Assembly (NCBI GenBank): GCA_015660815.1
Contig: JACSDF010000013.1
Coordinates: forward strand, 1 to 32,391
Reading direction: 5' to 3'
Length of the DNA: 32,391 nt
Source: Actinomycetota bacterium
Lineage (GTDB): Bacteria; Actinomycetota; Actinomycetes; Nanopelagicales; Nanopelagicaceae
Shown here: in pieces, positions 4,990 to 22,592 of the stretch
Layout of the letters: each line of letters begins with the position of its first letter
How positions within the stretch are numbered: the stretch's first letter is position 1
The notes under the pieces: model-generated
Databases searched by the model: none
What the model saw: the letters and a program-made list of their open reading frames with translations, nothing else
What the model was told of the DNA's origin: nothing
Program-made: the position numbers and the translations under genes

Positions 4990-6423
4990 TTAACTTTTGG
5001 TGACGCGGTATGTATCTAAAGTTGGATCACTTGCGTAGGCGATACGCACACCGACGGCTTTTGCAGCAGATAAACCTTCAATTATAACTTTTGTTAATAA
5101 TTCACCTGGTGCCACCACTGCAACACCTGGGGGATAGGGGGCAATTAGGTCGGCAGATATTCGGCCAATGGCCTTCGCTGCTGCGACCATTTCAGTGCCG
5201 GCAAAGTACGCATCGCGTATTGATAGTGCAACGGTAGGAACAACAGACCAACTAAGAGATGTAGCTGAATCGCGTGGAGTTTTTTGCATCGCGGTAAGAA
5301 TTGGGATCAGCACTTTGGCTAGTTCATCGAATTCAATTGTTGAATCGGCAAGAGTGGCTAAAAAAACTATGGTGTCGCTATCTGCCATTTCTACTCGAAT
5401 GTTCTGCAGTTGAAGTGCTTTTTCTATTTCAACACCAGATGCACCTAGTTGATTGGCGCGCAACACTACTTTTGTCGGATCAAAGCGGCCGACCGGGAAG
5501 TCACTGGGGTTGAGAAAGATTGGAAGGTTAAAGTGGGACTGGACTTCATTTTTAAAATCTTCAACATCTGCAACAAGTTGTGAAATCAACTCCTGACCCC
5601 GAGTTTGCAAAAGCGCTCGGCAACCATCAATCGATGCCAGAGGTGCACCAGCCGGGGATGTTGTATGTGTTGTTTCAAAACTTTGCTCAATGCGATCTAG
5701 ATTTAAATACTTTCCTTGTGCAATGAGTAAAGCCGATGCACTGTAACCGGGCAGAGCTTTATGCGTACTGGTAATTAATGCATCGGCCCCCAATGCTAAA
5801 CAGTGCGCAGGAACGGAGGTAGAAAAACCAAAATGTCCACCCCATGCTGCATCAACTATGACTGGAATTGAATGAGAGTGTGCTGCTTGAATAAGTGCTG
5901 GCAAATCTGACAACGTACCTAAGTAGCCAGGTTCAGTTAATAAAAGTGCGATTGGTTTTTGGGCGATTACTTTTTCAAACTCAGCAACCGGAATCCCAAT
6001 TGGTATGCCAGTTGCCGCATCGATTTCAGGAGATATCCAAATGGGGTCTAGACCTGCTAATACAAGTGCACTTAAGACTGAGCGGTGTGCGGTACGTGAT
6101 AAAGCGACTTTATCTCCGGGCTTTCCAAGGGCCAAAATAATTGCTTGATTTGCATGCGTTGACCCACCCGTTGAAAATCGCGCATAGTCAGCGCCCCACA
6201 ACGTTGCAGCTAACGCCTCTGCGCTTCGTAACACCTGATTAGTCAACTTAATTTCATCAAGACCACCATATAAAGGAGTATCGCTATCTACTACTAAACC
6301 AAGCCCCTCATCTAGGCGCGCGGCCCGCTGCTTGTGTCCAGGGATTGTGAAAGGAAGGCGCTTGTGCTCGAAATATGAAAGATAAGCATCTAATAACGGT
6401 GCCGAAACTCTCAGTGAACTCAT
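4990..6423 (-). CDS. Orn/Lys/Arg decarboxylase (fold type I, PLP-dependent)
   Basis: This 477-residue enzyme belongs to the major Orn/Lys/Arg decarboxylase family, which makes putrescine, cadaverine or agmatine in the cytoplasm. Visible PLP-site features are the Ser/Thr-Gly phosphate-binding segment STGGSTHANQA (84-94), the ring-stacking His in RTAHRS (113), the Asp of VDAAWGGHFGF (191) and the Schiff-base lysine in STHKALPG (K222). Length fits the short SpeA/YaaO-like form without the N-terminal wing domain of enterobacterial enzymes. The ATG at 6423 has TAGGCT six nt upstream, predicting a leaderless mRNA. It is divergent from gabT across 56 bp and upstream, on the same strand, of the ABC importer. 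Which amino acid it decarboxylates cannot be told here. Confidence 0.88.
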   Translation of the reverse strand: MSSLRVSAPLLDAYLSYFEHKRLPFTIPGHKQRAARLDEGLGLVVDSDTPLYGGLDEIKLTNQVLRSAEALAATLWGADYARFSTGGSTHANQAIILALGKPGDKVALSRTAHRSVLSALVLAGLDPIWISPEIDAATGIPIGIPVAEFEKVIAQKPIALLLTEPGYLGTLSDLPALIQAAHSHSIPVIVDAAWGGHFGFSTSVPAHCLALGADALITSTHKALPGYSASALLIAQGKYLNLDRIEQSFETTHTTSPAGAPLASIDGCRALLQTRGQELISQLVADVEDFKNEVQSHFNLPIFLNPSDFPVGRFDPTKVVLRANQLGASGVEIEKALQLQNIRVEMADSDTIVFLATLADSTIEFDELAKVLIPILTAMQKTPRDSATSLSWSVVPTVALSIRDAYFAGTEMVAAAKAIGRISADLIAPYPPGVAVVAPGELLTKVIIEGLSAAKAVGVRIAYASDPTLDTYRVTKS

Positions 6424-6479: not shown

Positions 6480-7820
6480 ATGAACACATTGACTAATCTG
6501 ACCCAAGAACGCCGTCTGGTTACTGCAATTCCGGGACCAAAATCTATTGAGGCGCTTAAGCGTCGCAGTGAGGCGACATCTGGGGGATTGGGAATGGCAA
6601 TTCCTGTCATCATCGAGCGGGCAAGTGATGCGATCCTGCTCGATATTGATGGAAATCAAATTATCGATCTGGGCTCAGGCATTGGTGTTGTTAATGTCGG
6701 CAACTCAGCAAGCCGAGTAGTAGATAGAGTCATAGAGCAGGTACAGGCATTCACGCATACATGTTTCACTGTAGCTCCTTACATGAACTACATCGAAGTC
6801 TGCGAAAAATTAAATGCAATTACTCCGGGAACACATAAGAAGAAATCGCTCCTCGTTAACTCAGGTGCTGAAGCCGTCGAAAATGCAGTAAAAATTGCGC
6901 GTCATTACACAAAGCGTCCGGCCATTGTCGTTTTCGAACACAGTTATCACGGACGTACAAATTTAACGATGGCATTGACTGCCAAGAACATGCCTTACAA
7001 AGAGGGCTTCGGTCCATTTGCCCCAGAGATTTATCGCGTACCGATGCCTTATTCATTTCATTGGGTAGGCGATCAGGCAACGATTGCCCACGATGCAATT
7101 GAATTAGTAACGCATAAAATTGATAAAGAGATTGGCGCACATAATGTTGCCGCGATTTTAATTGAACCAATTCAGGGCGAAGGTGGATTCATTGTTCCAC
7201 CTAAGGGTTTTATGCCCGCGCTCGCCAAGTACTCAACCGATAATGGAATTCTATTTATCGCTGATGAAGTCCAAACAGGATTTGCCCGAACCGGTCATAT
7301 GTTCGCCGTCGAAGATGAAAACGTCGTGCCCGACATAATGGTCACAGCTAAAGGAATTGCCGGCGGACTTCCGCTGGCAGGCATCACTGGGCGGGCCGAA
7401 ATTATGGACTCAGTTCATGCCGCAGGACTCGGTGGAACTTTTGGTGGAAACCCAATCTCATGCGCCGCGGCCCTTGGCGCACTTGAAACGATGGAGGCGG
7501 AAAACCTCGTCGCTCGTGCCCAACACATTGGGCAAATCTTGGGCGAGTCACTGCGCGCACTTCAAAAGAAATATTCAATTATTGGCGAAGTTCGCGGACG
7601 TGGCGCAATGCAGGCAATTGAATTAGTAGAAGCAGGGACAAAGAATCCAAATACCGCCGCTATGAATTCAGTTGTTAAGTACTGCCAAAGTAAAGGTGTT
7701 TTAGTCTTAACAGCTGGTACTTATTCCAACGTAATCCGCTTCTTACCTCCGCTGGTAATTACTGACGAACTACTTAAAGATGCGCTCAACGTTCTTGAAG
7801 AAGGCTTTGCCTCGCTTTAA
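6480..7820 (+). CDS. gabT: 4-aminobutyrate aminotransferase (class III, PLP-dependent)
   Basis: This 446-residue aminotransferase would move the amino group of 4-aminobutyrate to 2-oxoglutarate, giving succinate semialdehyde and glutamate. Key features are VNSGAEAVENAVKIAR (phosphate cup, around 126-141), EHSYHGRTNLT, IEPIQGEGG, the Asp of FIADEVQTGFART (D262) and the Schiff-base lysine in TAKGIAGGLPLAG (K291). The whole pattern matches GabT closely. Related substrates (putrescine, 5-aminovalerate, beta-alanine) remain possible. The ATG follows a -10 hexamer by six nt. It diverges from an Orn/Lys/Arg decarboxylase, and glutamate dehydrogenase is nearby, suggesting a route from amines to glutamate. 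No succinate-semialdehyde dehydrogenase is in the window. Its stop overlaps that of the convergent activase gene. Confidence 0.92.
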   Translation: MNTLTNLTQERRLVTAIPGPKSIEALKRRSEATSGGLGMAIPVIIERASDAILLDIDGNQIIDLGSGIGVVNVGNSASRVVDRVIEQVQAFTHTCFTVAPYMNYIEVCEKLNAITPGTHKKKSLLVNSGAEAVENAVKIARHYTKRPAIVVFEHSYHGRTNLTMALTAKNMPYKEGFGPFAPEIYRVPMPYSFHWVGDQATIAHDAIELVTHKIDKEIGAHNVAAILIEPIQGEGGFIVPPKGFMPALAKYSTDNGILFIADEVQTGFARTGHMFAVEDENVVPDIMVTAKGIAGGLPLAGITGRAEIMDSVHAAGLGGTFGGNPISCAAALGALETMEAENLVARAQHIGQILGESLRALQKKYSIIGEVRGRGAMQAIELVEAGTKNPNTAAMNSVVKYCQSKGVLVLTAGTYSNVIRFLPPLVITDELLKDALNVLEEGFASL

Positions 7821-8515
7821 TCAAAAATCGAGCGGTATCGAATTAGATCTGATTCGCCTACTTCTGGCCAATCGCGAGCAGCAGCTCGCACGCCGTGTGA
7901 TTTGAATGCATTTATTTTGATTTTCATGTCGGGATTAATGCCTTTAAGCCACACCGCGGTCTTAATCAACTCTTCATCAGAATCATTCTGACCTGGAACA
8001 AGCAGCAATCTAACTTCAAAAAGTTTATTGATTGAGTCAAGGAATTTAATTGACTCCAGAACAACTTCATTAGAGCTTCCCGTCAAAGCGATATGACTAG
8101 CATCATCGAGCGCCTTTAAATCAAGCATGACGCCATCGGTAAAAGGTGCGAGTGATTCCCAAATATATTCTGGTGCATTGCCATTACTATCAATAAAAGT
8201 TGTAAGGTGGGCAAACTCCGGCAATCTCTTAATCTCTTCAAAGAGTTCGAGAAGAAACTCATGTTGCACGGTTGCTTCTCCACCTGAAACAGTGATCCCA
8301 GAGATATATGGCATTGCCGCTCGAATATCATCTAGAACTTCGGGCACGCCCATCACACGTGCCCGCGGAGTGTGAAGTGGAATAGTTTGTGGGTTGTGGC
8401 AGGCCAAACAATTAAAGTTACATCCCTGCAGAAAAAGAACGAATCGATTTCCCGGTCCATCTACCCAGGAAAAAGGGATGATGCTAGCTACTTGTGCTTG
8501 GTGAGCTTTCAGCAC
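7817..8515 (-). CDS. Glycyl-radical-enzyme activase (radical SAM), YjjW/PflA-like
   Basis: This 232-residue radical-SAM protein should install the glycyl radical on the enzyme encoded immediately upstream. The cluster motif is GCNFNCLACHNP with cysteines at 32, 36 and 39 (CxxxCxxC). Next come the SAM-contact segment TVSGGEATVQ, and DSNG and MLDLKALD further on. There are no extra cysteine clusters after the motif, so the ferredoxin-like insert of E. coli YjjW (287 residues, from memory) appears absent. The size is closer to PflA/NrdG. The GTG start at 8515 has AAAGGG about 7 nt upstream and lies inside the 3' end of the partner gene (32-nt overlap), implying tight coupling. It ends convergently with gabT, overlapping its last bases with no visible terminator. 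Confidence 0.85.
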   Translation of the reverse strand: MLKAHQAQVASIIPFSWVDGPGNRFVLFLQGCNFNCLACHNPQTIPLHTPRARVMGVPEVLDDIRAAMPYISGITVSGGEATVQHEFLLELFEEIKRLPEFAHLTTFIDSNGNAPEYIWESLAPFTDGVMLDLKALDDASHIALTGSSNEVVLESIKFLDSINKLFEVRLLLVPGQNDSDEELIKTAVWLKGINPDMKIKINAFKSHGVRAAARDWPEVGESDLIRYRSIFD

Positions 8516-10019
8516 TCGTTACCCTTTTCACTATACGTTGGTCAACATGTGAATCTGCAACCGAACCAGCACCTAAATAAGTACTTGAATGGCGTGCACT
8601 CGGCATTTTCGCAAGATCTGATTTGCGAACTAAGTAACCTGTTATTCGTATGAAGTCGTTGCTATCTAAATTGAAAGTGAAATCGCGCATACCGCTTTTA
8701 AATGCGCCACGAATAACATCGACGACGGCCTGTGGATTTTTCACGGCCGTATCGTCAAAGGACAAGACATCACTGATTCCTGATTGAAAGAGATGGTGAT
8801 GACGGGCAACGGTATTTAAGTGAGAAATTAGCGAGGGCTCGGTTCCGATAGGGATGCGTGTGCCCGCGGTAACACCAATATCCAAATCAATACCAGACTG
8901 AGAGTGCAAGAAGGCGTAACCATTGTTGGCTTTGCAGTAAGGCATTTTACGCTCAGCAACCCAAGCAGAGATAAATGAAGTAATGCGATAACCCAAGTCA
9001 TCTGCGATTGAACTATGTCCATACGTACCCTCGCTTCCTTCGCGGGCCATAAGAATATTAACCGCTTCGGCAAGACCAAATATGCCAAACATTGCGGAAA
9101 ACCTATCTAATTCCAGTAAACCCTCCGCAATTAGCCAGTTGGATTCAAAGAAGTGTGATTCCTCAACGAGATAGAGAATCCGTGACTCCATCAATTCGGC
9201 CGTCAAATCTAAGTAATACGGAAGAGTTGTTGCAAGGAAGGGCTCAACTCCGCCTTCAGTTGCATCTACCGTTGCTTTTAAATTTATTCGGACAAGAGTG
9301 TGAGACCCACCCCCAATTTTTAGAGAGTTGTAACAACTAACAGCGGCATAGTCAGGACCCAAATCCGATTGCATCATCACATCATTGATGAAATGTGGCT
9401 TGCCGCATTCAAAAACAGTTTTAACTGCATCCAGAATATATTCATCACTGGTTAGAACAGGATCAACTTTGAGCGAAATATTTGGAACTACCTGAAGCAA
9501 TTCGCGTTCTAACTTCAAAATCATCTTAGAAACACGGTTATAAACAGGGCTCAAATTCGTATGCGCGAATGCGTCCGGGAACATGCGGTCAAGGCTGATC
9601 CAGAAGCGCTTCATTTTTGCATATAACTCTTCGTCAACAATCCCCTCAACATAGGGCAGCAATAACGTGTCCAAATCGCCAAAGTAAACTGGATATCCAG
9701 TAATCGAAGGCGTTGCTGAGTACATAATAAGTAAAAATGCCAAAGCATCATCTAAATCTTTAGCTGGTGGAAGCTCTAAAAACTTCGATCCATTTACCAA
9801 GACTTTCTTGTAGTCGGGCAATAAGTAACGAGGCCGGTATGGTGCACTTCCCTCATACATATCGCAGATAATTCGACTAGAAAGTGCATCACTACATTGT
9901 TTGCGAACTGCGGGTGGATCCAAGAGATTTTCAGCTAAGTTTGCAAGTCCTGCAACACGTTGGCGATACGTAAATTTCGGATTGGTCACCATTGAACGAA
10001 TGTCTTCTAGCGATGTCAT
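8484..10019 (-). CDS. YjjI-family glycyl radical enzyme
   Basis: This 511-residue protein matches the YjjI (DUF3029-type) family of glycyl radical enzymes, whose reaction is not established to my knowledge. The C-terminal glycyl-radical loop is visible as FIRITGYLVR, giving G461 as the radical site. A candidate thiyl cysteine is C229 in AAVSCYNS, mid-protein as expected. Other conserved-looking stretches are EGSEGTYGHSSIADDLGYRI (328-347) and TAGTRIPIGTEP. The ATG at 10019 follows TAAAAT by six nt, so it likely has its own leaderless promoter, separate from regX3 upstream. A glycyl radical is destroyed by oxygen, so the enzyme should act only under anoxic or micro-oxic conditions. It is not pyruvate formate-lyase (too short) and not NrdD. 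Confidence 0.82.
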   Translation of the reverse strand: MTSLEDIRSMVTNPKFTYRQRVAGLANLAENLLDPPAVRKQCSDALSSRIICDMYEGSAPYRPRYLLPDYKKVLVNGSKFLELPPAKDLDDALAFLLIMYSATPSITGYPVYFGDLDTLLLPYVEGIVDEELYAKMKRFWISLDRMFPDAFAHTNLSPVYNRVSKMILKLERELLQVVPNISLKVDPVLTSDEYILDAVKTVFECGKPHFINDVMMQSDLGPDYAAVSCYNSLKIGGGSHTLVRINLKATVDATEGGVEPFLATTLPYYLDLTAELMESRILYLVEESHFFESNWLIAEGLLELDRFSAMFGIFGLAEAVNILMAREGSEGTYGHSSIADDLGYRITSFISAWVAERKMPYCKANNGYAFLHSQSGIDLDIGVTAGTRIPIGTEPSLISHLNTVARHHHLFQSGISDVLSFDDTAVKNPQAVVDVIRGAFKSGMRDFTFNLDSNDFIRITGYLVRKSDLAKMPSARHSSTYLGAGSVADSHVDQRIVKRVTSAESSPSTSS

Positions 10020-10025
10020 GCTTTT

Positions 10026-10031
10026 ATTTTA
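10026..10031 (-). promoter_or_regulatory. Leaderless -10 of the glycyl radical enzyme gene
   Basis: TAAAAT on the minus strand is separated by six bases (AAAAGC) from the ATG at 10019. No clear -35 hexamer or Shine-Dalgarno is seen. The surrounding gap (10020-10110) is AT-rich. Confidence 0.5.
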
Positions 10032-10110
10032 AGTTCCTCGCAATGATAATTCGCTATAAATAGCACTCATTCACGAAGTAAAGTACCTCAGGGAGTGCTG
10101 GCGCTCAGTT

Positions 10111-10797
10111 TTAACTCTCTAATTTGTACCCAAGTCCTCGAATAGTTTGAATTAAGACTGGATTGGCAGGGTCAATTTCTAACTTAGAACGCAGGCGCTT
10201 TATATGTACGTCGAGTGTTTTCGTGTCTCCAAAGTAATCTCCACCCCACACACGATCAATTAACTGTGAACGTGTTAATACACGACCAGAATTACGCATC
10301 AAAAACTCAAGAAGTTCAAACTCCTTCAACGGAAGTGCAACAGGTGCGCCATTACTAAAAGCTTGGTGACGAGCAGTATCCAACTTAATCGCTCCAACTG
10401 TAATTACTTCCAAATCACCATTTAAATCAGCATCTGAAATCCCTCGCCGAAGAACGGCCTTGATACGGGCTATTAATTCGCGCGAAGAGTATGGCTTAGT
10501 CACATAATCATCGGCACCAAGCTCTAGACCTACAACTTTATCTATTTCTGCATCTTTGGCGGTCAACATAATAATTGGCACGTGTGATGTGGTACGAATC
10601 GTACGGCAAACATCAACCCCAGAGATTTCAGGAATCATAAGGTCAAGGAGAATGAGATCCGCACCTTCTTTGGCAAAGGTATTGAGTGCCGCACGCCCGT
10701 CTTCGGCCACACTAACTTCAAAGCCCTCTTTACCAAGGAGGAAGGCCAACGCTTCAGAAAAAGAGCTTTCATCTTCAACTATTAGTATTTTTGTCAT
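10111..10797 (-). CDS. regX3: OmpR/PhoB-family response regulator, RegX3/PhoP-like
   Basis: This 228-residue DNA-binding regulator has a receiver domain (1-115) with the acidic pair EDE at 8-10, phospho-acceptor D52 in LLDLMIP, T79 and K101 in VTKPYS. A winged-helix output domain (about 130-228) follows, with the typical ending DPANPVLIQTIRGLGYKL. Its start overlaps the kinase stop by one base (TAATG), so the pair is translated together. Adjacency to senX3, phoU, pst genes and PHO-box repeats makes it the probable phosphate-starvation regulator. In E. coli terms it is PhoB; in actinobacteria the names RegX3 and PhoP are both used, and sequence alone does not settle which fits best. Confidence 0.9.
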   Translation of the reverse strand: MTKILIVEDESSFSEALAFLLGKEGFEVSVAEDGRAALNTFAKEGADLILLDLMIPEISGVDVCRTIRTTSHVPIIMLTAKDAEIDKVVGLELGADDYVTKPYSSRELIARIKAVLRRGISDADLNGDLEVITVGAIKLDTARHQAFSNGAPVALPLKEFELLEFLMRNSGRVLTRSQLIDRVWGGDYFGDTKTLDVHIKRLRSKLEIDPANPVLIQTIRGLGYKLES

Positions 10798-11858
10798 TAT
10801 GCACTCTCTGTTTGCGAATCATAGACTGGTAATCGAAGTGAAAAAGTACTCCCGACATTTTCAACGCTCCATAGTGTTACTTCTCCACCATGTTTTGAAG
10901 CTACATGCTTAACAATTGATAGTCCCAATCCAGTTCCACCAGTTTGCCGTGAGCGCGCTGGATCAACTCGGTAAAAACGTTCGAAGATTCGCTCTTGCTC
11001 AGATTCAGAAATACCAATGCCTTGGTCGGTAACTGAAATATTTACAATCCCATTTTCAATGTGAGTGCTGATTGAAACTTTAGTCCCTTCAGGGGAGTAA
11101 TTAATTGCGTTCTCAATGAGATTGTGAACGGCCATAATCAATTGATCGCGGTCTCCAAGAACTACTGTCGTCGTAGACTCTGAGAAAGTGACGGTAATAT
11201 TTCGATTATCAGCAGTGATTTGACATTGATCTATTGCTTCGCGAATCAAATACTCCACTCCAACTTCTTGTGCTAGTTGTAATGGATCAGAATCCTGGAC
11301 GCGCGATAAGTTAATAATCTCTTGAACCAAATCTGTTAATCGTTTTGCCTCGGATTGCATTCGGGTAGCAAATTTAACAACTGAATCGGGGTCATCTTTT
11401 GCACCTAAAACCGCCTCACTCAAAAGTGAAAGTGCACCAATTGGAGTTTTTAACTCATGAGATATATTTGCAACAAAATCGCGCCTAACATCATGAACGC
11501 GCTGCGCTTCACTTTCATCACTTACTAAAACTAAAACCAAGTCATCTTTAGTTAAAGGCAAGACTTTCACTGTCAACTCGTGCTTACCTTCACCAATTGG
11601 ACCACGGGGAAAATCAATCTTTCCTACTTGCTGGTTATGCGTGCGGCGCACTACACGTATAGTGGCCAATAGCTCAGAACTCTGAATTCGCTCATCCTTG
11701 AGTATTCCAAGAAGTTCTATGCCTGGGGTGATAAAAATCGGGATCTCGCCAGGGGCTAAAATCATTGAGTCGCCGTCAAGAAGGTTAAGAGTTTCCAGGA
11801 GCATCTCTGGCAAAGCGCGTGGGTTAAAATCAGTTTCTTCCCTGCGCAAGAACTTCAT
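10797..11858 (-). CDS. senX3: SenX3/PhoR-like sensor histidine kinase without membrane segments
   Basis: This 353-residue kinase has H134 in ANISHELKTPIGAL, an N box NLIENAINYSP, G1 DQGIGI, an F box FERFYRVDP and G2 GTGLGLSIVKH. Residues 1-115 look like a PAS-type sensor domain. Unlike SenX3 or PhoR, there is no N-terminal transmembrane hairpin. An in-frame TAG lies four codons before the ATG, so no upstream extension is possible. That TAG is part of the -10 hexamer TAGAGT, six nt before the ATG. The kinase would therefore be cytosolic and could read phosphate status through PhoU and the Pst complex. It is divergent from phoU with a PHO box between them. Confidence 0.9.
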   Translation of the reverse strand: MKFLRREETDFNPRALPEMLLETLNLLDGDSMILAPGEIPIFITPGIELLGILKDERIQSSELLATIRVVRRTHNQQVGKIDFPRGPIGEGKHELTVKVLPLTKDDLVLVLVSDESEAQRVHDVRRDFVANISHELKTPIGALSLLSEAVLGAKDDPDSVVKFATRMQSEAKRLTDLVQEIINLSRVQDSDPLQLAQEVGVEYLIREAIDQCQITADNRNITVTFSESTTTVVLGDRDQLIMAVHNLIENAINYSPEGTKVSISTHIENGIVNISVTDQGIGISESEQERIFERFYRVDPARSRQTGGTGLGLSIVKHVASKHGGEVTLWSVENVGSTFSLRLPVYDSQTESA

Positions 11859-11864
11859 AAGGCA

Positions 11865-11870
11865 ACTCTA
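11865..11870 (-). promoter_or_regulatory. Leaderless -10 of senX3-regX3
   Basis: TAGAGT on the minus strand lies six bases (TGCCTT) before the senX3 ATG at 11858. No Shine-Dalgarno is present. The PHO-box repeats at 11898-11930 begin 40 nt upstream of the predicted start site, a position suited to regulation by RegX3 itself. Confidence 0.5.
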
Positions 11871-11897
11871 TCGGCTCAAAAGGCTAGTTTACCTTGC

Positions 11898-11930
11898 GTT
11901 CACCAAAGCGTGGCCCTCTATTCACCATCT
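11898..11930 (+). promoter_or_regulatory. PHO box (three 11-nt units) between senX3 and phoU
   Basis: Three consecutive 11-nt units read GTTCACCAAAG, CGTGGCCCTCT and ATTCACCATCT. Units 1 and 3 match the actinobacterial PHO-box core GTTCACC (six or seven of seven) in exact 22-nt register; the middle unit is degenerate, as often seen. It ends five nt before the proposed -10 of phoU, so bound regulator would cover the -35 region. It could also control senX3-regX3 on the other strand. Confidence 0.7.
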
Positions 11931-11935
11931 CCACG

Positions 11936-11941
11936 TAGGTT
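11936..11941 (+). promoter_or_regulatory. Leaderless -10 of phoU-pstCAB
   Basis: TAGGTT is followed by seven bases and the phoU ATG at 11949. There is no -35 consensus; the PHO box immediately upstream probably replaces it, as in activator-dependent promoters. Confidence 0.45.
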
Positions 11942-11948
11942 TTGCGCC

Positions 11949-12602
11949 ATGGCACTCATCAGATCTGTATTCCAAGACGAGCTCGATAACGTTTCTCAAT
12001 CTTTAGTTGATCTTACCGAAATGGTATCAACTGCAATGTCAAAGGCAACTTCTGCGTTATTGAATAGCGATTTGAAACTGGCCGAAGAAGTGATTGCAAA
12101 TGATGAAAAAATTGATGATTACCAACATGATATCGATTCACATGTCATTGACATTATTGCTCGACAACAACCCGTGGCTTCCGATTTACGTGCACTCGTC
12201 ACCGCACTTCGCATGGGTTCAGATTTGGAACGCATGGGGGATCTCGCACATCACGTTGCAAAACTCGCAAGACTCCGCCATCCAGAATGTGCAATCCCAT
12301 CAGAGTTAATTGAGACCGTGACAAATATGGGCCGCGTTGCAGTAGAACTTACTAATAAGACGGGCATGGTTATTTCGACGAGAAATACTGAGATGGCACT
12401 TGAAGTCGGACTCGATGATGATGAGATGGATGATTTGCATCGTCAAGTTATTGCCAAACTCATTGAGCCAAAATGGGACCATGGAATCGAAAGTGCAATT
12501 GATTTAACTTTATTAGGTCGATATTACGAACGCTATGCAGATCATGCAGTCTCAGTCTCTCGCCGTGTGTACTTCCTTGTGACTGGAAAGTACGCCTCAT
12601 AA
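11949..12602 (+). CDS. phoU: PhoU phosphate-signalling regulator
   Basis: This 217-residue, all-helical cytoplasmic protein has two tandem PhoU repeats (about 1-105 and 106-217). The conserved core is visible in EEVIANDEKIDDYQHDID, followed by LRMGSDLERMGDLAHHVAKLA in repeat 1 and YYERYADHAVSVSRRV in repeat 2. PhoU links the Pst transporter to the kinase and represses signalling when phosphate is ample. The ATG at 11949 is chosen over a GTG at 11910 because it gives the family's usual start and follows a -10 hexamer; the longer form would read through the PHO box. The stop overlaps the pstC start as TAATG. Confidence 0.93.
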   Translation: MALIRSVFQDELDNVSQSLVDLTEMVSTAMSKATSALLNSDLKLAEEVIANDEKIDDYQHDIDSHVIDIIARQQPVASDLRALVTALRMGSDLERMGDLAHHVAKLARLRHPECAIPSELIETVTNMGRVAVELTNKTGMVISTRNTEMALEVGLDDDEMDDLHRQVIAKLIEPKWDHGIESAIDLTLLGRYYERYADHAVSVSRRVYFLVTGKYAS

Positions 12603-13588
12603 TGTTAACTGCAACAGAGATAGTCATTCCGGCTCCAAGAGAATTAACGACAAAACCTCGGCGCTCAGATCAGATTTTCCGTGGAGTTGTAACGATTGGG
12701 GGAATGGCTTCCCTCGTAATACTTGGTTTGATTGCGCTATTCCTTTCACTTAAAGGAATACATATTTTACGTGAAGAGAAATTTAGTTTTATTACTACCT
12801 CTAAGTGGGAAGTAATCACCGATGAGACGGGTTCAATAGCAGGTTCCTCATTTGGGATTGGTGCCATGTTGGTTGGTACATTCCTGTGTGCACTCATTGC
12901 AATAATCGTTGGAGTCCCTATTGCTGTATTAAGTGCGCTGTACCTTACTTTTTATGCTAAGGGAGCTGCCAAGAAATTTCTGGTCTCACTTGTCGACTTA
13001 ATGGCTGCCTTCCCATCCTTGCTATATGGCTTTTGGGGCTTCTTTATCTTTATGGCAAGCGCTGAATATTGGGCAAAGCTCCTGAATAAATACTTTGGAT
13101 TCATCCCATTTTTCGACGTGCCAGCTCCAATCTTTGAGCGGTCACCATTCATTGCAGGTTTAGTTTTAGCGATCATGATCATTCCAATTGTGACTTCGAT
13201 ATCACGAGAGGTTTTTGATCAAACTCCGCTCGATCGAATTCAGGCGGCATATGCACTCGGTGCCTCCAAGTTGGCAATGATTCGTGCAGTTGTGATCCCT
13301 TATGGTCGTGGCGGAGTTATCGGTGGAGCGATGCTTGGTTTAGGTCGAGCTATGGGCGAAACCGTGGCGGTGTATACGGTTCTAAACGTTGTCTATCAAA
13401 TCAATTGGCAGGTCCTCTTTGGAGCTGGTGGAAATGTTGCCTCACTTATCTTGCTCAAATTTGGTGAAGCAGGCCCGTATGAGGTCGACGCCCTTATGGC
13501 AGCCGGACTAATTCTCTTTGTTCTTACATTATTTGTTAACGCCGCCGCGGATCTACTGATAACCCGTTTTGGAGGTAAGGGACGATGA
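12602..13588 (+). CDS. pstC: Phosphate ABC transporter permease PstC
   Basis: This 328-residue membrane permease of the high-affinity phosphate importer has about six hydrophobic segments, starting near residue 32. It carries the EAA loop AAYALGASKLAMIRAVVIP and the PstC-typical GRAMGETVAVYTVLN. An extracytoplasmic stretch after the first helix is rich in charged residues. It overlaps phoU by one base and pstA by four (ATGA), so the cluster is one translational unit driven from the PHO box before phoU. Confidence 0.94.
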   Translation: MLTATEIVIPAPRELTTKPRRSDQIFRGVVTIGGMASLVILGLIALFLSLKGIHILREEKFSFITTSKWEVITDETGSIAGSSFGIGAMLVGTFLCALIAIIVGVPIAVLSALYLTFYAKGAAKKFLVSLVDLMAAFPSLLYGFWGFFIFMASAEYWAKLLNKYFGFIPFFDVPAPIFERSPFIAGLVLAIMIIPIVTSISREVFDQTPLDRIQAAYALGASKLAMIRAVVIPYGRGGVIGGAMLGLGRAMGETVAVYTVLNVVYQINWQVLFGAGGNVASLILLKFGEAGPYEVDALMAAGLILFVLTLFVNAAADLLITRFGGKGR

Positions 13589-14634
13589 CTATGACAGTTG
13601 AACCCCTACCGCAAAAACCTTGGGAGGTAACGAGCAGACAACGTGCATCTACTGCTTCGCTTCTTGCGATTGCGGCCTTGTTAAGTTGGTTGCTCATTAC
13701 TGTAACTGGTTTAAACGGTAAATTAGGTTATTTATCTGCATTTTTCGTTACCGCTGCCACGTTGATATTTATTCAGCAGTTTCGTTTGCGCAATCTAGCC
13801 GCTGCAAAAGACTCACTACTAAGTAGTTTTGCACTTCTCGGCATGGTGATAACAGTTATTCCAATTGTAAGTATTGTCGCCACAGTAATTGTAAAGGGTT
13901 ACAAAGGAATTCACTTCGGTTTATTTTTTAATGATATGTCCTTGAACTCAGTTAACGATCCAATAAATCAAGGTGGATTACTTCACGCATTGCTTGGAAC
14001 GATTATTATGGTCGGCGGTGCCTTGATAATTAGCTTCCCAATTGGAGTTCTGACCGCCTTATATTTGACTGAAATCCAAGGCAGGTTATCTAGACCGATT
14101 AAGTTCTTAGTTCAAGCTATGAGCGGCGTCCCATCAATCGTAGCTGGCTTATTTATTCTCTCGAGCCTCGTATACCCGGTAACAAAATCACTCTCTGGAA
14201 TGATGGGCTCATTTGCACTCTCAATTTTAATGATTCCAACAATTGCGCGTACCGCAGAAGAGATGCTGCGCTTGATTCCTAATGAACTTCGAGAGGCAGG
14301 TGTAGCACTTGGCGGAACACAGTGGCGCACAGTTGCTGGTGTTGTATTACCTGCTGCAAAAAGTGGACTCGTGACCGCAGTTATATTGGGAATGGCAAGA
14401 ATTATTGGTGAAACCGCGCCACTGCTACTTGTTTCTGGTGGTGGAGACTCGGTTAACTTAAATCCGACCTCCGGACCTATGGGATCTCTTCCTTATTACA
14501 TCTGGAAATCATTCTTAACTGGGGGCACCGAAGAGGCCTTTGCTCGGGCATGGGGAGGACTTTTAGTTCTTCTAGCCTTCATCTTTATTTTATTTGGCGC
14601 AGCTCGCTTAATAAGTGGAAGAAAGGTCATGTGA
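13585..14634 (+). CDS. pstA: Phosphate ABC transporter permease PstA
   Basis: This 349-residue partner of PstC has two extra N-terminal hydrophobic segments (about 25-45 and 49-65) before the canonical permease core, making it longer than the roughly 300-residue E. coli form. Hallmarks are [11 protein letters not shown], the EAA loop [18 protein letters not shown] and [13 protein letters not shown]. The start overlaps the pstC stop as ATGA. pstB follows after one base. Confidence 0.94.
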
Positions 14635-14635
14635 T

Positions 14636-15553
14636 ATGAGTATTGAGAATTCTGATGACAATGGAACTGAAGAACTACACAACAACGACAAGGCAGTGGA
14701 GAAAAATATGCAAACTCAAGTAACTCCCAGCTCGCTTGCAACGGTTGCTGGAAATCGTGAGGTTCGAGTTCCAGGCAGCGAAATGCTTGGTATAGGACTT
14801 GAAACTCGGGGAGTACATGCCTGGTTTGGGAAAAAACATGTGTTAGCCGATGTTTCTCTTGATTTTGCCGCTGGAACCGTCACGGCATTAATTGGACCTT
14901 CAGGCTGTGGAAAATCGACTTTCTTACGGACCCTCAATCGTATGCATGAGTTTATTCCGACAGCTGCACTTGCAGGACAGGTATTACTAGACGGACGAGA
15001 TATTTATGCAGCCGGGACAGATGTGACGAAGATTCGTCTTAATGTTGGAATGGTTTTCCAGAAACCAAACCCGTTTCCCTCAATGACTATTGGGCAAAAT
15101 GTCTTATCGGGACTAAAACTTGCACAGCTAAAGAGAAGCAACACCGATGACTTGATGGAGTCATGTTTGGAGCGGGCAGGATTATGGAGTGAGGTTAAGG
15201 ATCGACTAAACGAGCATGGCGGCGCTCTCTCTGGCGGTCAACAACAACGCTTGTGCATTGCTCGTGCTTTGGCAGTTGAACCGCAAGTTCTGTTGATGGA
15301 TGAGCCGTGCTCAGCTCTTGATCCAGGATCTACTTTTAGAATCGAGCAGACGATCTCTGAACTCGCAAAAACTATGACGATTATCATCGTGACTCACAAC
15401 ATGCAACAGGCTGCCCGAGTCTCTGACTACACAGCATTCTTCCTCTCTGATGGAGGCCCAGGAGTAATGGTTGAAGCGGCACCGACTAGCAAAATTTTCT
15501 CGGCACCCGTTGATAAACGAACTGAGGACTACGTCACTGGTCGTTTTGGTTAA
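14636..15553 (+). CDS. pstB: Phosphate ABC transporter ATPase PstB
   Basis: This 305-residue ATPase energises PstCA. It shows Walker [10 protein letters not shown], the Q-loop region VFQKPNPFP, the signature LSGGQQQR, Walker [15 protein letters not shown] and the PstB-specific switch [13 protein letters not shown]. It is about 45 residues longer than typical PstB. The N-terminal extension is acidic and Asn-rich and probably disordered. The ATG at 14636 is preceded by GAAAGG nine nt upstream. A second in-frame ATG at 14708 with GGAG would give a 281-residue protein and cannot be excluded; a GTG at 14615 inside pstA is less likely. Confidence 0.93.
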
Positions 15554-15561
15554 CTCTGTTT

Positions 15562-15616
15562 GTTCACTTAATGCTTACTCAGATTTAACCTGCTTCTTAC
15601 TCTCTAGTCACTAGCG
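15562..15616 (+). promoter_or_regulatory. PHO box array (five 11-nt units) upstream of pstS
   Basis: Five back-to-back 11-nt units start GTTCACT, GCTTACT, TTTAACC, TCTTACT and AGTCACT (at 15562, 15573, 15584, 15595 and 15606). All five share T at position 3, A at 5 and C at 6, with C or T at 7, fitting the PHO core GTTCACC. The array occupies most of the pstB-pstS gap and ends 50 nt before the pstS ATG. It predicts separate phosphate-controlled transcription of the binding-protein gene. Confidence 0.68.
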
Positions 15617-15666
15617 CTCAATACCGTTGGCACGTAAAAGAACTACCCTCCAACGAAAGGTTCATA

Positions 15667-16815
15667 ATGAAGTTTTCTACAAAAGCAAAAGCAGTTGCTC
15701 TTGCCGCTTTAATTGTAGTCTCAACTGCACAACCTGCGCATGCAGTTGATTTAACTGGATCCGGTGCATCATTCGTAGATCCGCTTTTGCAAGCATGTAA
15801 GGCAGGCTTTGCCAAGGCAAGTGGCCATTCATATGTTTACTCTTCAGTCGGTTCAGGTACTGGTAAGAGAAATTCTGACTCTCAATTAGGAGATTTTTGG
15901 TTCTCAGACTCAACTCACTCAGCATCAACTAAGCGTTCAACAGTCTTTCACGCACCTATCATCGCTGCTCCTATTGCAGTGCTCGTTAATCTTCCAGCAA
16001 AGAAAGATATCTATCTGAGCACAGCAACAGTTGCGAAGATTTTCGCTGGTGAAATTACAAAATGGAATGATGCAGCGATTGTCGCCGATAATAACCGTTC
16101 CATTACAACTACAATTTATCGCAAAGATTCAAATGGAAACGTCAAAAAAGATAGCAAAGGTAATCCAGTAGTTCTTCGAACAGCTACAAAGACAAGTTAC
16201 TACACACTTCCAAACCAGCTAATCAAGGTAGTCTTTCGTGCCGATGGTTCTGGAACGACAAATAACTTCACAAAATGGTTAAATGGTGTTGCTCCAACCG
16301 TTTGGACTAAGCCAGCTAATGATGCCTTTACAACTGCCTTCCCTAGCAATATAAATGCTCCTGCAAATATCGGTCGAATAGTCGGAGCGAATGCATCGCA
16401 GGGTATTGCAACACTTGCTGCAAAGACTCCTTATTCAATTACTTATGCGGAGAAGAACTGGGGCGATGCTTATGGTCTACGTGCTGCATATGTAAGTAAT
16501 GCAACAGGTCAGTTCGTATACCCAGATTCAGCCGCTGTCTCTGCATTTTTAGGTGAAGCCAACCAAGATGCAAACGGAATTGTTACCTATGATTACTCAA
16601 CAAAGGTCGCTGGCGCATACACACTAGGAATCGTTTCCTATATGTTAGTTGAAACCTCTTATGCAGATAAGGCAAAAGGAGCTGCAGTCAAGCAGTTGGC
16701 TGAATATATCCTTTCTTCTGAGTGTGCAGCTGGAGATCCAAAACTTGGCTATGTTGTTCTCACAGGTAGCTTCCTTGACAAAGCGAAGTCACTCATTGCA
16801 AAGATGAATAAGTAA
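15667..16815 (+). CDS. pstS: Phosphate-binding protein PstS
   Basis: This 382-residue exported protein captures phosphate for PstCAB. A signal peptide ends with AHA at residues 24-26. The mature protein opens with TGSGASFVDPLLQ, the usual PstS start, and has phosphate-site segments VGSGTGKR, FRADGSGTTNNFTKWL and IGRIVGANASQGIATL. There is no lipobox cysteine, unlike many monoderm PstS proteins. The ATG has GAAAGG six nt upstream. It is the last gene of the cluster, behind its own PHO-box array, and is followed by a strong terminator. Confidence 0.92.
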   Translation: MKFSTKAKAVALAALIVVSTAQPAHAVDLTGSGASFVDPLLQACKAGFAKASGHSYVYSSVGSGTGKRNSDSQLGDFWFSDSTHSASTKRSTVFHAPIIAAPIAVLVNLPAKKDIYLSTATVAKIFAGEITKWNDAAIVADNNRSITTTIYRKDSNGNVKKDSKGNPVVLRTATKTSYYTLPNQLIKVVFRADGSGTTNNFTKWLNGVAPTVWTKPANDAFTTAFPSNINAPANIGRIVGANASQGIATLAAKTPYSITYAEKNWGDAYGLRAAYVSNATGQFVYPDSAAVSAFLGEANQDANGIVTYDYSTKVAGAYTLGIVSYMLVETSYADKAKGAAVKQLAEYILSSECAAGDPKLGYVVLTGSFLDKAKSLIAKMNK

Positions 16816-20986: not shown

Positions 20987-21050
20987 TGCTACGATTGAAT
21001 GAAGTAATAATTTTGATTTTTCCAAGTTAAGATGATTTGAAGGAGAAGTG

Positions 21051-22592
21051 ATGCTGGGCTACATCATGCGCCGAATTGGTGTTTCCATAATGATTCTATT
21101 TGGATCTAGTTTTTTAGTTTACAATTTAGCCGCTTACGCTGGCGATCCACTTGGAGAACTTCGCTTCAGCACTGATGATAATGCCAAGCAGCAGATAATC
21201 GCATTAACTCGTGAGCTTCAACTAGATGTTCCACCGCCGCTTCGTTATTTTCTCTGGCTTAAAGGCATTCTTGGAGTCTTTGTCGGAAAATTAGAGATGG
21301 GTATGACACGTGAGTCCTCATCAGTTCAAGGAGAGTTGGCATTTGCTATTCCTGTCACGCTTCGATTGGTCTTGGTCGCATCGGTTACTGCGCTTCTGCT
21401 CGGACTTGCATTTGGAATAATCTCGGCCCTTCGTCAATACAGCCGCTTTGATTATGCAATGACTTTTATGGCATTTGTTTTGTTCTCCCTACCGATATTT
21501 TGGGTTGCAGTGCTATTAAAAGAGTTCATGGCGATTCAATTTAACAATTTTTTGAGTGAACCAAGTATTCCTCTCAGGTGGATGTTTATTTTCTCCTGCT
21601 TTACTGCCGTATTTTGGAGCTCCCTATTTGGCGGTGAACGTAAGCGCTTTTGGAGCGTTTTTGCGGGCGCCTTCGCAACGAATTTTGTGATTTTATGGGC
21701 AATAGATTTTACGGATTGGTATCTACACCCTGGACTTGGTCCAATACTTATTGGATTTTTATCCGTTGGAATCGCCATGGGTGTTGCGTCGATTTCAACT
21801 GGACTGACAAATATTCCCGCTCGAAATGCGGCACTCACCATGGCAGGATTAGCCGTGCTCTGGTATTACCCAGCACAATGGGTATTTAACAATCATGGCT
21901 CTTACCTTGTTATTCTCTTAATGCTGGCTTTAATTGTCGGGACTGGGTTTATCTGTGCATCGCTCTTTAGTAAAATTGACCGTGGTCCAATAGCCCGGAC
22001 AGCGATAATTACTGGAGTTATTTCAGGTTTTCTCATCTTCATTGACCGCGTCATGCAAACTTGGGCTCCATATCGAGCAACCGATGCTGTCAATGGGCGT
22101 CCAGTACCAACGTATGGTCAGCGCAAGGATCAATTAGTTACCGATGATTTCTGGCTAAATAATCTTGATACTATTATGCACTTAATCTTGCCCACAATAG
22201 CCTTAATCCTCATCTCCCTTGCTGGATGGATTAGATACACACGTGGAGCGCTTTTAGAGGTTCTCAACCAAGATTACATTCGCACGGCAAGAGCTAAAGG
22301 TCTCAATGAACGGACGGTCATTACTCGCCACGCGCTTAGAAATACAATGCTCCCACTGTCAAGTTTATTCGTTGGAGAGTTTGTCGGTCTCATCGGCGGG
22401 GCGGTCATCACCGAACGGGTATTCGGATGGTCGGGCATGGGAACTCTAGGAATTAGAGCGATAAATAGCTACGACTTGAATCTGCTAATGGGTGTTACCT
22501 TACTTTTGTCCACTTTAGTTGTATTAGGGAATTTGTTGGCAGATTTAGTCTATTCAGCTTTGGATCCTCGAATTAGATTGGTAAAAGAATAA
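21051..22592 (+). CDS. Dpp/Opp-family permease DppB-like with large internal membrane insertion
   Basis: This 513-residue permease is far longer than the usual 300-340 residues. The N-terminus (MLGYIMRRIGVSIMILFGSS) and residues 95-165 are standard DppB, as is the C-terminal part from about 370, with the EAA loop TARAKGLNERTVITRHALRN. Between about 172 and 335 lies an extra block of roughly five or six hydrophobic segments, with a polar loop to 368. The reading frame is clean and both halves are intact, so this is a domain insertion and not a frameshift. The ATG at 21051 has AGGAG five nt upstream. It overlaps the next gene as TAATG. I have not identified the inserted block. Confidence 0.88.
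   Translation: MLGYIMRRIGVSIMILFGSSFLVYNLAAYAGDPLGELRFSTDDNAKQQIIALTRELQLDVPPPLRYFLWLKGILGVFVGKLEMGMTRESSSVQGELAFAIPVTLRLVLVASVTALLLGLAFGIISALRQYSRFDYAMTFMAFVLFSLPIFWVAVLLKEFMAIQFNNFLSEPSIPLRWMFIFSCFTAVFWSSLFGGERKRFWSVFAGAFATNFVILWAIDFTDWYLHPGLGPILIGFLSVGIAMGVASISTGLTNIPARNAALTMAGLAVLWYYPAQWVFNNHGSYLVILLMLALIVGTGFICASLFSKIDRGPIARTAIITGVISGFLIFIDRVMQTWAPYRATDAVNGRPVPTYGQRKDQLVTDDFWLNNLDTIMHLILPTIALILISLAGWIRYTRGALLEVLNQDYIRTARAKGLNERTVITRHALRNTMLPLSSLFVGEFVGLIGGAVITERVFGWSGMGTLGIRAINSYDLNLLMGVTLLLSTLVVLGNLLADLVYSALDPRIRLVKE

Follow-up and report, generated by a model that had tools for sequence, protein, structure and literature searches.

The closest described counterparts of the gene pair reported here are YjjI and YjjW of Escherichia coli (b4380 and b4379). 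YjjI is an orphan even in this best-studied of bacteria, and excerpts of the literature naming it yielded no tested reaction. Its Haemophilus influenzae orthologue was annotated by homology in an older database as formate acetyltransferase, a label repeated in PMC3228777; that paper, as excerpted, also proposed a nitrogen role for E. coli YjjI and remarked that its predicted domain structure is NrdD-like. Further excerpts place E. coli yjjI, in the same category as narGHJI, in a table of operons under direct activation by FNR (PMC3688515), mark it as FNR activated (PMC2634741), bicluster it with narG in E. coli/Salmonella coexpression data (PMC3228777), and include yjjI in an anaerobic transcriptome table of Yersinia intermedia (PMC3792023). 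Here we describe a yjjI-yjjW pair in a 32,391-nucleotide (nt) stretch of DNA, referred to below as the window (contig JACSDF010000013.1 of assembly GCA_015660815.1). Its source is a "Candidatus Planktophila"-like metagenome-assembled genome (MAG) of 1.585 Mb in 64 contigs, 98% complete. The pair belongs to a known, uncharacterized family and has a variant activase; our analysis adds an ecological tie and a substrate lead.

Both genes lie on the minus strand. The glycyl radical enzyme gene yjjI (8484..10019) encodes 511 amino acids (aa), and the activase gene yjjW (7817..8515), behind it, encodes a radical S-adenosylmethionine (SAM) protein of 232 aa from a GTG start. They overlap by 32 nt (8484..8515), and positions 7817 to 10019 contain exactly these two genes and nothing else. 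An earlier reading of this DNA from its letters alone (the original prediction) had named the two families, the overlap, a complete radical loop, a mid-protein cysteine, and a CxxxCxxC motif in the partner, and had called the YjjI reaction unestablished; our analysis and the literature excerpts agree with it on each count. YjjI scored 667.7 bits against TIGR04040 (cut-off, 498.3) over residues 6 to 497 and 636 bits against PF11230 (cut-off, 23). The candidate thiyl residue C229 (codon 9333-9335) lies in the motif SCYN, and the candidate glycyl radical residue G461 (codon 8637-8639) lies in RITGY. An alignment of 91 YjjI rows from several phyla shows no variation at G461, R458, Y230, S228, R64, or R244, and 90 of the rows have C229. 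The exception, L102 (genome G628), has SAYH in place of SCYN, so that the thiyl cysteine is replaced by alanine, and it retains G461 and an activase. One further copy (L060:141-1670) has an in-frame stop in its YjjI frame, either a broken copy or a sequencing error.

The closest named relative of the window YjjI, from a "Ca. Planktophila" MAG, is 95% identical. For yjjI, comparison with the two nearest relatives in the set gave ratios of nonsynonymous to synonymous substitution rates (dN/dS) of 0.034 and 0.036; in more distant pairs dS was saturated and gave no ratio. For yjjW, dN/dS was 0.05 to 0.16 in the six comparisons in which dS could be estimated. Both genes are thus under purifying selection, and such low values show that the frames are not chance. 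The distance from the yjjI stop to the start of the VDGPG motif of the activase is 19 nt in 67 of 104 loci, E. coli among them, which makes the coupling of the two genes look old. From its family, we infer that the window YjjI would form a glycyl radical and turn over a substrate.

The activase differs from the E. coli form. YjjW scored 250.0 bits against TIGR04041, 0.2 below the cut-off of 250.2, a deficit that fits the loss of an insert. Its CxxxCxxC motif reads CNFNCLAC, and 47 aa without a cysteine separate this motif from the GGE motif, versus 90 aa with 8 cysteines in E. coli YjjW. The two-cluster ferredoxin-like insert of the E. coli type is absent, as the original prediction had suspected. 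The spacer was short in 62 of 102 activases (45 to 56 aa, with 0 or 1 cysteine) and long in 37 (90 to 94 aa, with 7 or 8 cysteines); the spacer pattern could not score the other 3. The short form also occurs in loci from the taxonomic order of the window (L082 to L093) and in Nocardioides, Planomonospora, and Dactylosporangium, and the form switches at least five times on a 91-row tree, built by a quick method with Shimodaira-Hasegawa-like approximate likelihood ratio test (SH-aLRT) support only and with the long branches L110 and L111 unsure. The insertless activase is thus a variant that recurs across the family and not an accident of this locus. Fourteen long activases (e.g., L046, L075, and L080) keep 7 rather than 8 spacer cysteines, and these are possible intermediates toward the short form.

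The predicted model of YjjI (mean predicted local distance difference test score, 90) has an NrdD-like barrel fold. The first 20 Foldseek matches in the PDB were class III ribonucleotide reductases (RNRs), the best being Prevotella copri 8p2s (E value, 5.8e-18). A second structural aligner, VIA, ranked NrdD structures 1 to 16 (Z scores, 31.2 to 27.1), again led by 8p2s (Z, 31.2; 469 residues at 3.0 Å), followed by PflD as the best non-RNR (Z, 26.3). The folds of the pyruvate formate-lyase (PFL) type had Z scores of 26.3 and below. Since their aligned lengths and root mean square deviations were near those of the NrdD matches, the NrdD lead in Z may partly reflect chain length. In profile comparisons, NrdD matched YjjI with an E value of 2.6e-7 over 388 columns, which place C229 on the invariant NrdD C386 and stop before the glycine loop. 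A PFL-like, dehydratase-type profile (PF02901) matched with an E value of 4.6e-7 over 146 columns that end at the cysteine loop, and C229 again fell on the partner cysteine. The two profiles do not match each other (E value, 0.089). Model and profiles together place the predicted YjjI between class III RNR and PFL-type enzymes, and the closeness of C229 and G461 is implied by the fold match only. Searches of the PDB by sequence, with the YjjI protein and with a 71-row profile, returned no glycyl radical enzyme and no YjjI structure; the five hits of the profile (up to an E value of 10) look like chance.

The original prediction had described the lineage as looking aerobic and had offered a micro-oxic niche, or else an unusual protection or repair strategy, as the way in which an oxygen-sensitive enzyme might persist there. 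The first description suits the cultured members: acI isolates have been described as chemoheterotrophs with an aerobic lifestyle, and two of the four have cytochrome bd (PMC5301498, in excerpt). It does not suit the genome of the window, in which contig C51 carries narGHJI (L177:13176-18998), all four genes exceeding their NCBIfam cut-offs, next to a nucleoside cluster of bmp, nupABC, cdd, deoA, and add. With narGHJI in the same genome, the puzzle of an aerobic lineage largely dissolves.

YjjI is present in 19 of 251 sampled genomes of the order, the window's genus accounting for 15, and is absent from all 13 single-contig genomes of that genus. We examined the site of the nucleoside cluster chiefly within this genus. 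There, nar was found in 8 of 8 testable YjjI-bearing genomes versus 2 of 16 testable genomes lacking YjjI (P = 6.1e-5), 10 of 24 overall; 3 contigs with YjjI and 5 without end too early to judge. Four stretches from genomes lacking YjjI (G146, G229, G098, and G026) were excluded because they hold a bmp paralogue (44 to 48% identity) with no cdd, deoA, or add adjoining; with them, the second count becomes 2 of 20. The nar-positive genome G142 has less than 5 kb upstream, and without it the first count is 7 of 7 (P = 1.5e-4). The genomes lacking YjjI were 25 fetched of 93, chosen nonrandomly by the listed location of bmp. Within the genus, cytochrome bd subunit I (with fragments counted) is present in 9 of 15 genomes with YjjI versus 10 of 93 without (Fisher one-sided P = 6.6e-5), or in 5 of 9 versus 5 of 35 when restricted to good genomes (P = 0.018). 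Going by their titles, several named YjjI relatives come from stratified-lake samples, such as Lake Pavin, and the Ja/Ki/Upp codes of relatives resemble the data set of PMC8121793, which in excerpt names Kiruna lakes. YjjI appears to mark a low-oxygen ecotype within the genus. Together with the excerpted reports of FNR activation in E. coli, these ties favor the micro-oxic alternative, and the simplest reading is that yjjI is a gene for low oxygen rather than a trick for living with oxygen.

No match to PF01228, NrdD (TIGR02487; YjjI locus included), or a PFL-like enzyme was found in the genome of the window, so YjjI is the sole glycyl radical enzyme detected there. A separate glycyl radical domain (PF01228) that could act as a protection or repair part was likewise not found in this genome, although PF01228 also misses YjjI itself, so a YjjI-like spare part could escape it. 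Because handles G307 and G662 denote the same genome, the YjjI-bearing genomes number 36. NrdD was found in 3 of these and a PF02901 match in 11, of which one, in G670 at a summed 26.2 bits, most likely stems from YjjI, leaving 10 true PFL-like enzymes; 26 of the 36 have neither enzyme detected. In five other loci (L146 to L150, from G327, G262, G349, G370, and G338), PFL-like open reading frames (ORFs) of about 700 to 770 aa each precede a distinct ORF of about 100 to 147 aa, with the glycyl radical loop RVSGY in those printed, as if from a split enzyme or a spare-part protein.

The lead to the substrate comes from gene neighborhoods, for which genes were called with a codon-usage gene caller after longest-ORF calls were dropped for giving wrong frames in G+C-rich loci. 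Nucleoside catabolism genes recur near yjjIW in several unrelated lineages, in differing arrangements. In E. coli, deoCABD is divergent from yjjIW. In G645, a single-contig actinobacterial genome from the window's phylum (possibly Coriobacteriia), an iron-containing alcohol dehydrogenase-like gene and deoC come first; yjjW, yjjI, a CRP-type gene, psuG, and a psuK-like kinase gene follow on the opposite strand, and then come deoB, deoD, bmp, nupA, and nupB; the dehydrogenase-like and psuK-like genes are below every NCBIfam cut-off. Neighborhoods of bmp, nup, cdd, and add occur in Propionibacteriaceae-like genomes. The cluster bmp-nupABC-cdd-add is divergent from yjjI in L080, bmp lies upstream of yjjI in L079 and L081, nupABC-bmp sits between yjjI and yjjW in L075, and bmp-nupABC with the start of cdd follows yjjIW in L019; L022 has bmp. 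Bmp was seen 6 times near yjjI versus 0.335 expected in 0.633 Mb of flank (Poisson P = 1.5e-6), or P = 0.005 when counted as three arrangements, in a test framed after the first cases had been seen. The density used was 72 in 136 Mb over 37 YjjI genome handles, and the flanks were those of 61 named loci, with L002 to L018, L020, and L064 left out. Across the phylum, Bmp occurs in 37 of 37 YjjI genome handles versus 199 of 396, in statistics that ignore phylogeny; at the order level co-occurrence is uninformative, as Bmp is in 225 of 251 genomes.

The DHOD-like gene of L046 was dropped as a pyrimidine neighbor because it follows a pyruvate:ferredoxin oxidoreductase, and the cytosine deaminase of L057 is not independent, since the search seed came from L057 itself. 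In L017 and L018, psuG and a PfkB kinase whose best matches are other sugar kinases are two genes distant, on the far side of a gene that by eye looks gyrase-like, and may be there by accident; both loci are included in the 11 of 109 given below. On a plasmid of Haliovirga abyssi, a YeiL-like regulator (L110:11230-11901; 122.9 bits; cut-off, 180) adjoins yjjIW; E. coli yeiL adjoins rihB and psuTGK.

We propose that the pair is the intact yjjIW of a low-oxygen "Ca. Planktophila" ecotype and performs radical chemistry on a nucleoside-derived pentose, an explanation that we put forward tentatively, as plausible but still short of probable. Under low oxygen, the radical-SAM [4Fe-4S] cluster of YjjW would place a radical on G461. 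Since the ferredoxin insert of YjjW is gone, its electrons would come from an external donor. G461 would hand the radical to C229, which would abstract a hydrogen from a substrate in the barrel. The neighborhoods, the two invariant arginines (R64 and R244), and the fold suggest that this substrate would most likely be a nucleoside-derived pentose, probably anionic, such as (deoxy)ribose phosphate. YjjI would then be an anaerobic step in the catabolism of nucleosides or pentoses, running alongside respiration with nitrate or trace oxygen. The activity, electron donor, substrate, and reaction are the parts of this proposal that we infer. A more specific version, which we regard as a long shot, would make YjjI a sugar-level cousin of anaerobic RNR that strips the 2-hydroxyl of ribose phosphate or a ribonucleoside and passes a 2-deoxypentose to DeoC. 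If this is true, DeoC would then give glyceraldehyde phosphate and acetaldehyde, and oxygen-short bacteria, some very abundant lake actinobacteria included, would ferment RNA-derived ribose via a DNA-sugar route.

Several observations weigh against the pentose proposal and its low-oxygen setting. Nucleoside genes were near yjjI in only 11 of 109 searched loci, many with short flanks, and nucleoside queries found no match within 12 kb of yjjI in Proteus (L113), Vibrio (L109), or Aeromonas (L112). In the genome of the window itself, the nucleoside cluster is on a separate contig from yjjIW, and no cytochrome bd match was found. The best NCBIfam match of the transporter among the nucleoside neighbors is a B6 transporter, far below its cut-off. 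In the second genus with YjjI, nar was at the tested site in 0 of 2 testable genomes, with 2 untestable, and the nar and bd statistics ignore shared ancestry. In Pfam scans of 234 neighboring proteins (232 of the 397 listed plus two L080 genes), no one family turned up at a large number of YjjI loci, and no neighbor is present at every locus.

YjjI might instead be a variant PFL or another 2-oxoacid lyase of low-oxygen central carbon metabolism rather than a nucleoside enzyme. The invariant R64 and R244 resemble the two substrate-binding arginines of PFL and count toward this view, as does the profile match to PFL-like dehydratase-type enzymes described above. The direct match to PF02901, over the cysteine region, is weak and misses the gathering cut-off (23.7 versus 24.3 bits), and among solved folds class III RNRs rank highest. 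In L046, pyruvate:ferredoxin oxidoreductase (1,627 bits) and the DHOD-like gene, about 0.47 kb off, precede yjjI on the same strand, and the old formate acetyltransferase annotation of the H. influenzae orthologue, as excerpted from PMC3228777, points the same way. A true PFL-like enzyme nevertheless stands alongside YjjI in 10 of the 36 YjjI genomes, and we consider a lyase role unlikely. A direct role for YjjI in nitrogen or nitrate metabolism, proposed from E. coli/Salmonella coexpression with narG, is less likely still. YjjI co-clusters with nitrogen metabolism genes in the excerpted data of PMC3228777, and the genomic tie to narGHJI within the genus is consistent with such a role, but coexpression under FNR is expected for many anaerobic genes, and no nar gene was found beside yjjI in the loci searched (L001 to L094).

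The neighbors in the window raise the question of a role in polyamine or gamma-aminobutyrate (GABA) metabolism, given gabT, a pyridoxal phosphate (PLP) decarboxylase-like gene, and a polyamine-type ATP-binding cassette (ABC) transporter. The gabT gene adjoins yjjW, the two gene ends overlapping by 4 nt, and the ABC operon then follows; in L014, a locus of the second-genus type, an AguB-like amidase (214.6 bits; cut-off, 410) is divergent beside yjjI. However, gabT is convergent and not cotranscribed with yjjW, and no polyamine-specific family was among the best 25 of 143 or the best 25 of 148 neighbor families at other loci. Because the gabT, decarboxylase, and ABC flanks recur only in window-type loci, we set this role aside as improbable. 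Finally, yjjIW could be an inactive remnant in an aerobe. It is an accessory gene pair (19 of 251 genomes of the order), its activase lacks the ferredoxin insert, and one related copy (L102) has lost the thiyl cysteine. The dN/dS values, the retained radical-loop and cysteine residues, and the co-occurring low-oxygen genes (nar and bd) all argue otherwise, and we think it very improbable that the pair is defunct.

The rest of the window holds several other features. Between yjjI and a response-regulator-like gene lies an intergenic stretch of 91 nt (10020..10110, minus strand), in which no sigma-70-like promoter match was found. Immediately upstream of yjjI and sharing its strand, the genes at 10111-16815 resemble, by eye, a response regulator and a histidine kinase and are divergent from a phoU-pstC-pstA-pstB-pstS operon. 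Between gabT and the 2-aminoethylphosphonate (AEP)/polyamine-type ABC operon, positions 4990-6423 encode a short Orn/Lys/Arg-decarboxylase-like protein of 477 aa that is above Pfam cut-offs and far below every NCBIfam decarboxylase cut-off. An oligopeptide-type ABC permease of 514 aa (21048-22592) is about 200 aa longer than most matched models, and several of these models align with it as two separate segments.

For the orphan YjjI, the nucleoside neighborhoods, the invariant active-site set, and a predicted fold intermediate between RNR and PFL would provide a short list of assayable substrates. The co-occurrence of YjjI, nitrate reductase, and cytochrome bd points to a low-oxygen ecotype in a genus whose lineage is known in culture from members described as aerobes. 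Such an ecotype would matter for how carbon and nitrogen are cycled where lake water is poor in oxygen.

Compared with known enzymes, the window YjjI (511 aa) is smaller than the NrdD ORFs found in other genomes here, which have 700 aa or more, and has none of the C-terminal paired cysteines of NrdD (C657/C660). It also departs from the dehydratase type, in which the consensus C-V-E puts a glutamate two residues after the cysteine; the corresponding residues of YjjI are C-Y-N, with N231. The best solved relative of its activase is PflA (3c8f; E value, 2.5e-25), which aligns without a long insert, although the activase scores 137.6 bits against the PflA family TIGR02493, far below the cut-off of 231.75. 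The E. coli pair matches that of the window in family (TIGR04040), gene order, the 19-nt spacing to VDGPG, and the Cys and Gly motifs. It differs in adjoining deo genes, which the window pair does not, and in its host, since no other glycyl radical enzyme was detected in the window's genome, unlike in E. coli. With a spacer 43 aa shorter than that of E. coli YjjW and none of its 8 cysteines, the short activase provides a simple natural experiment on the role of the YjjW ferredoxin insert.

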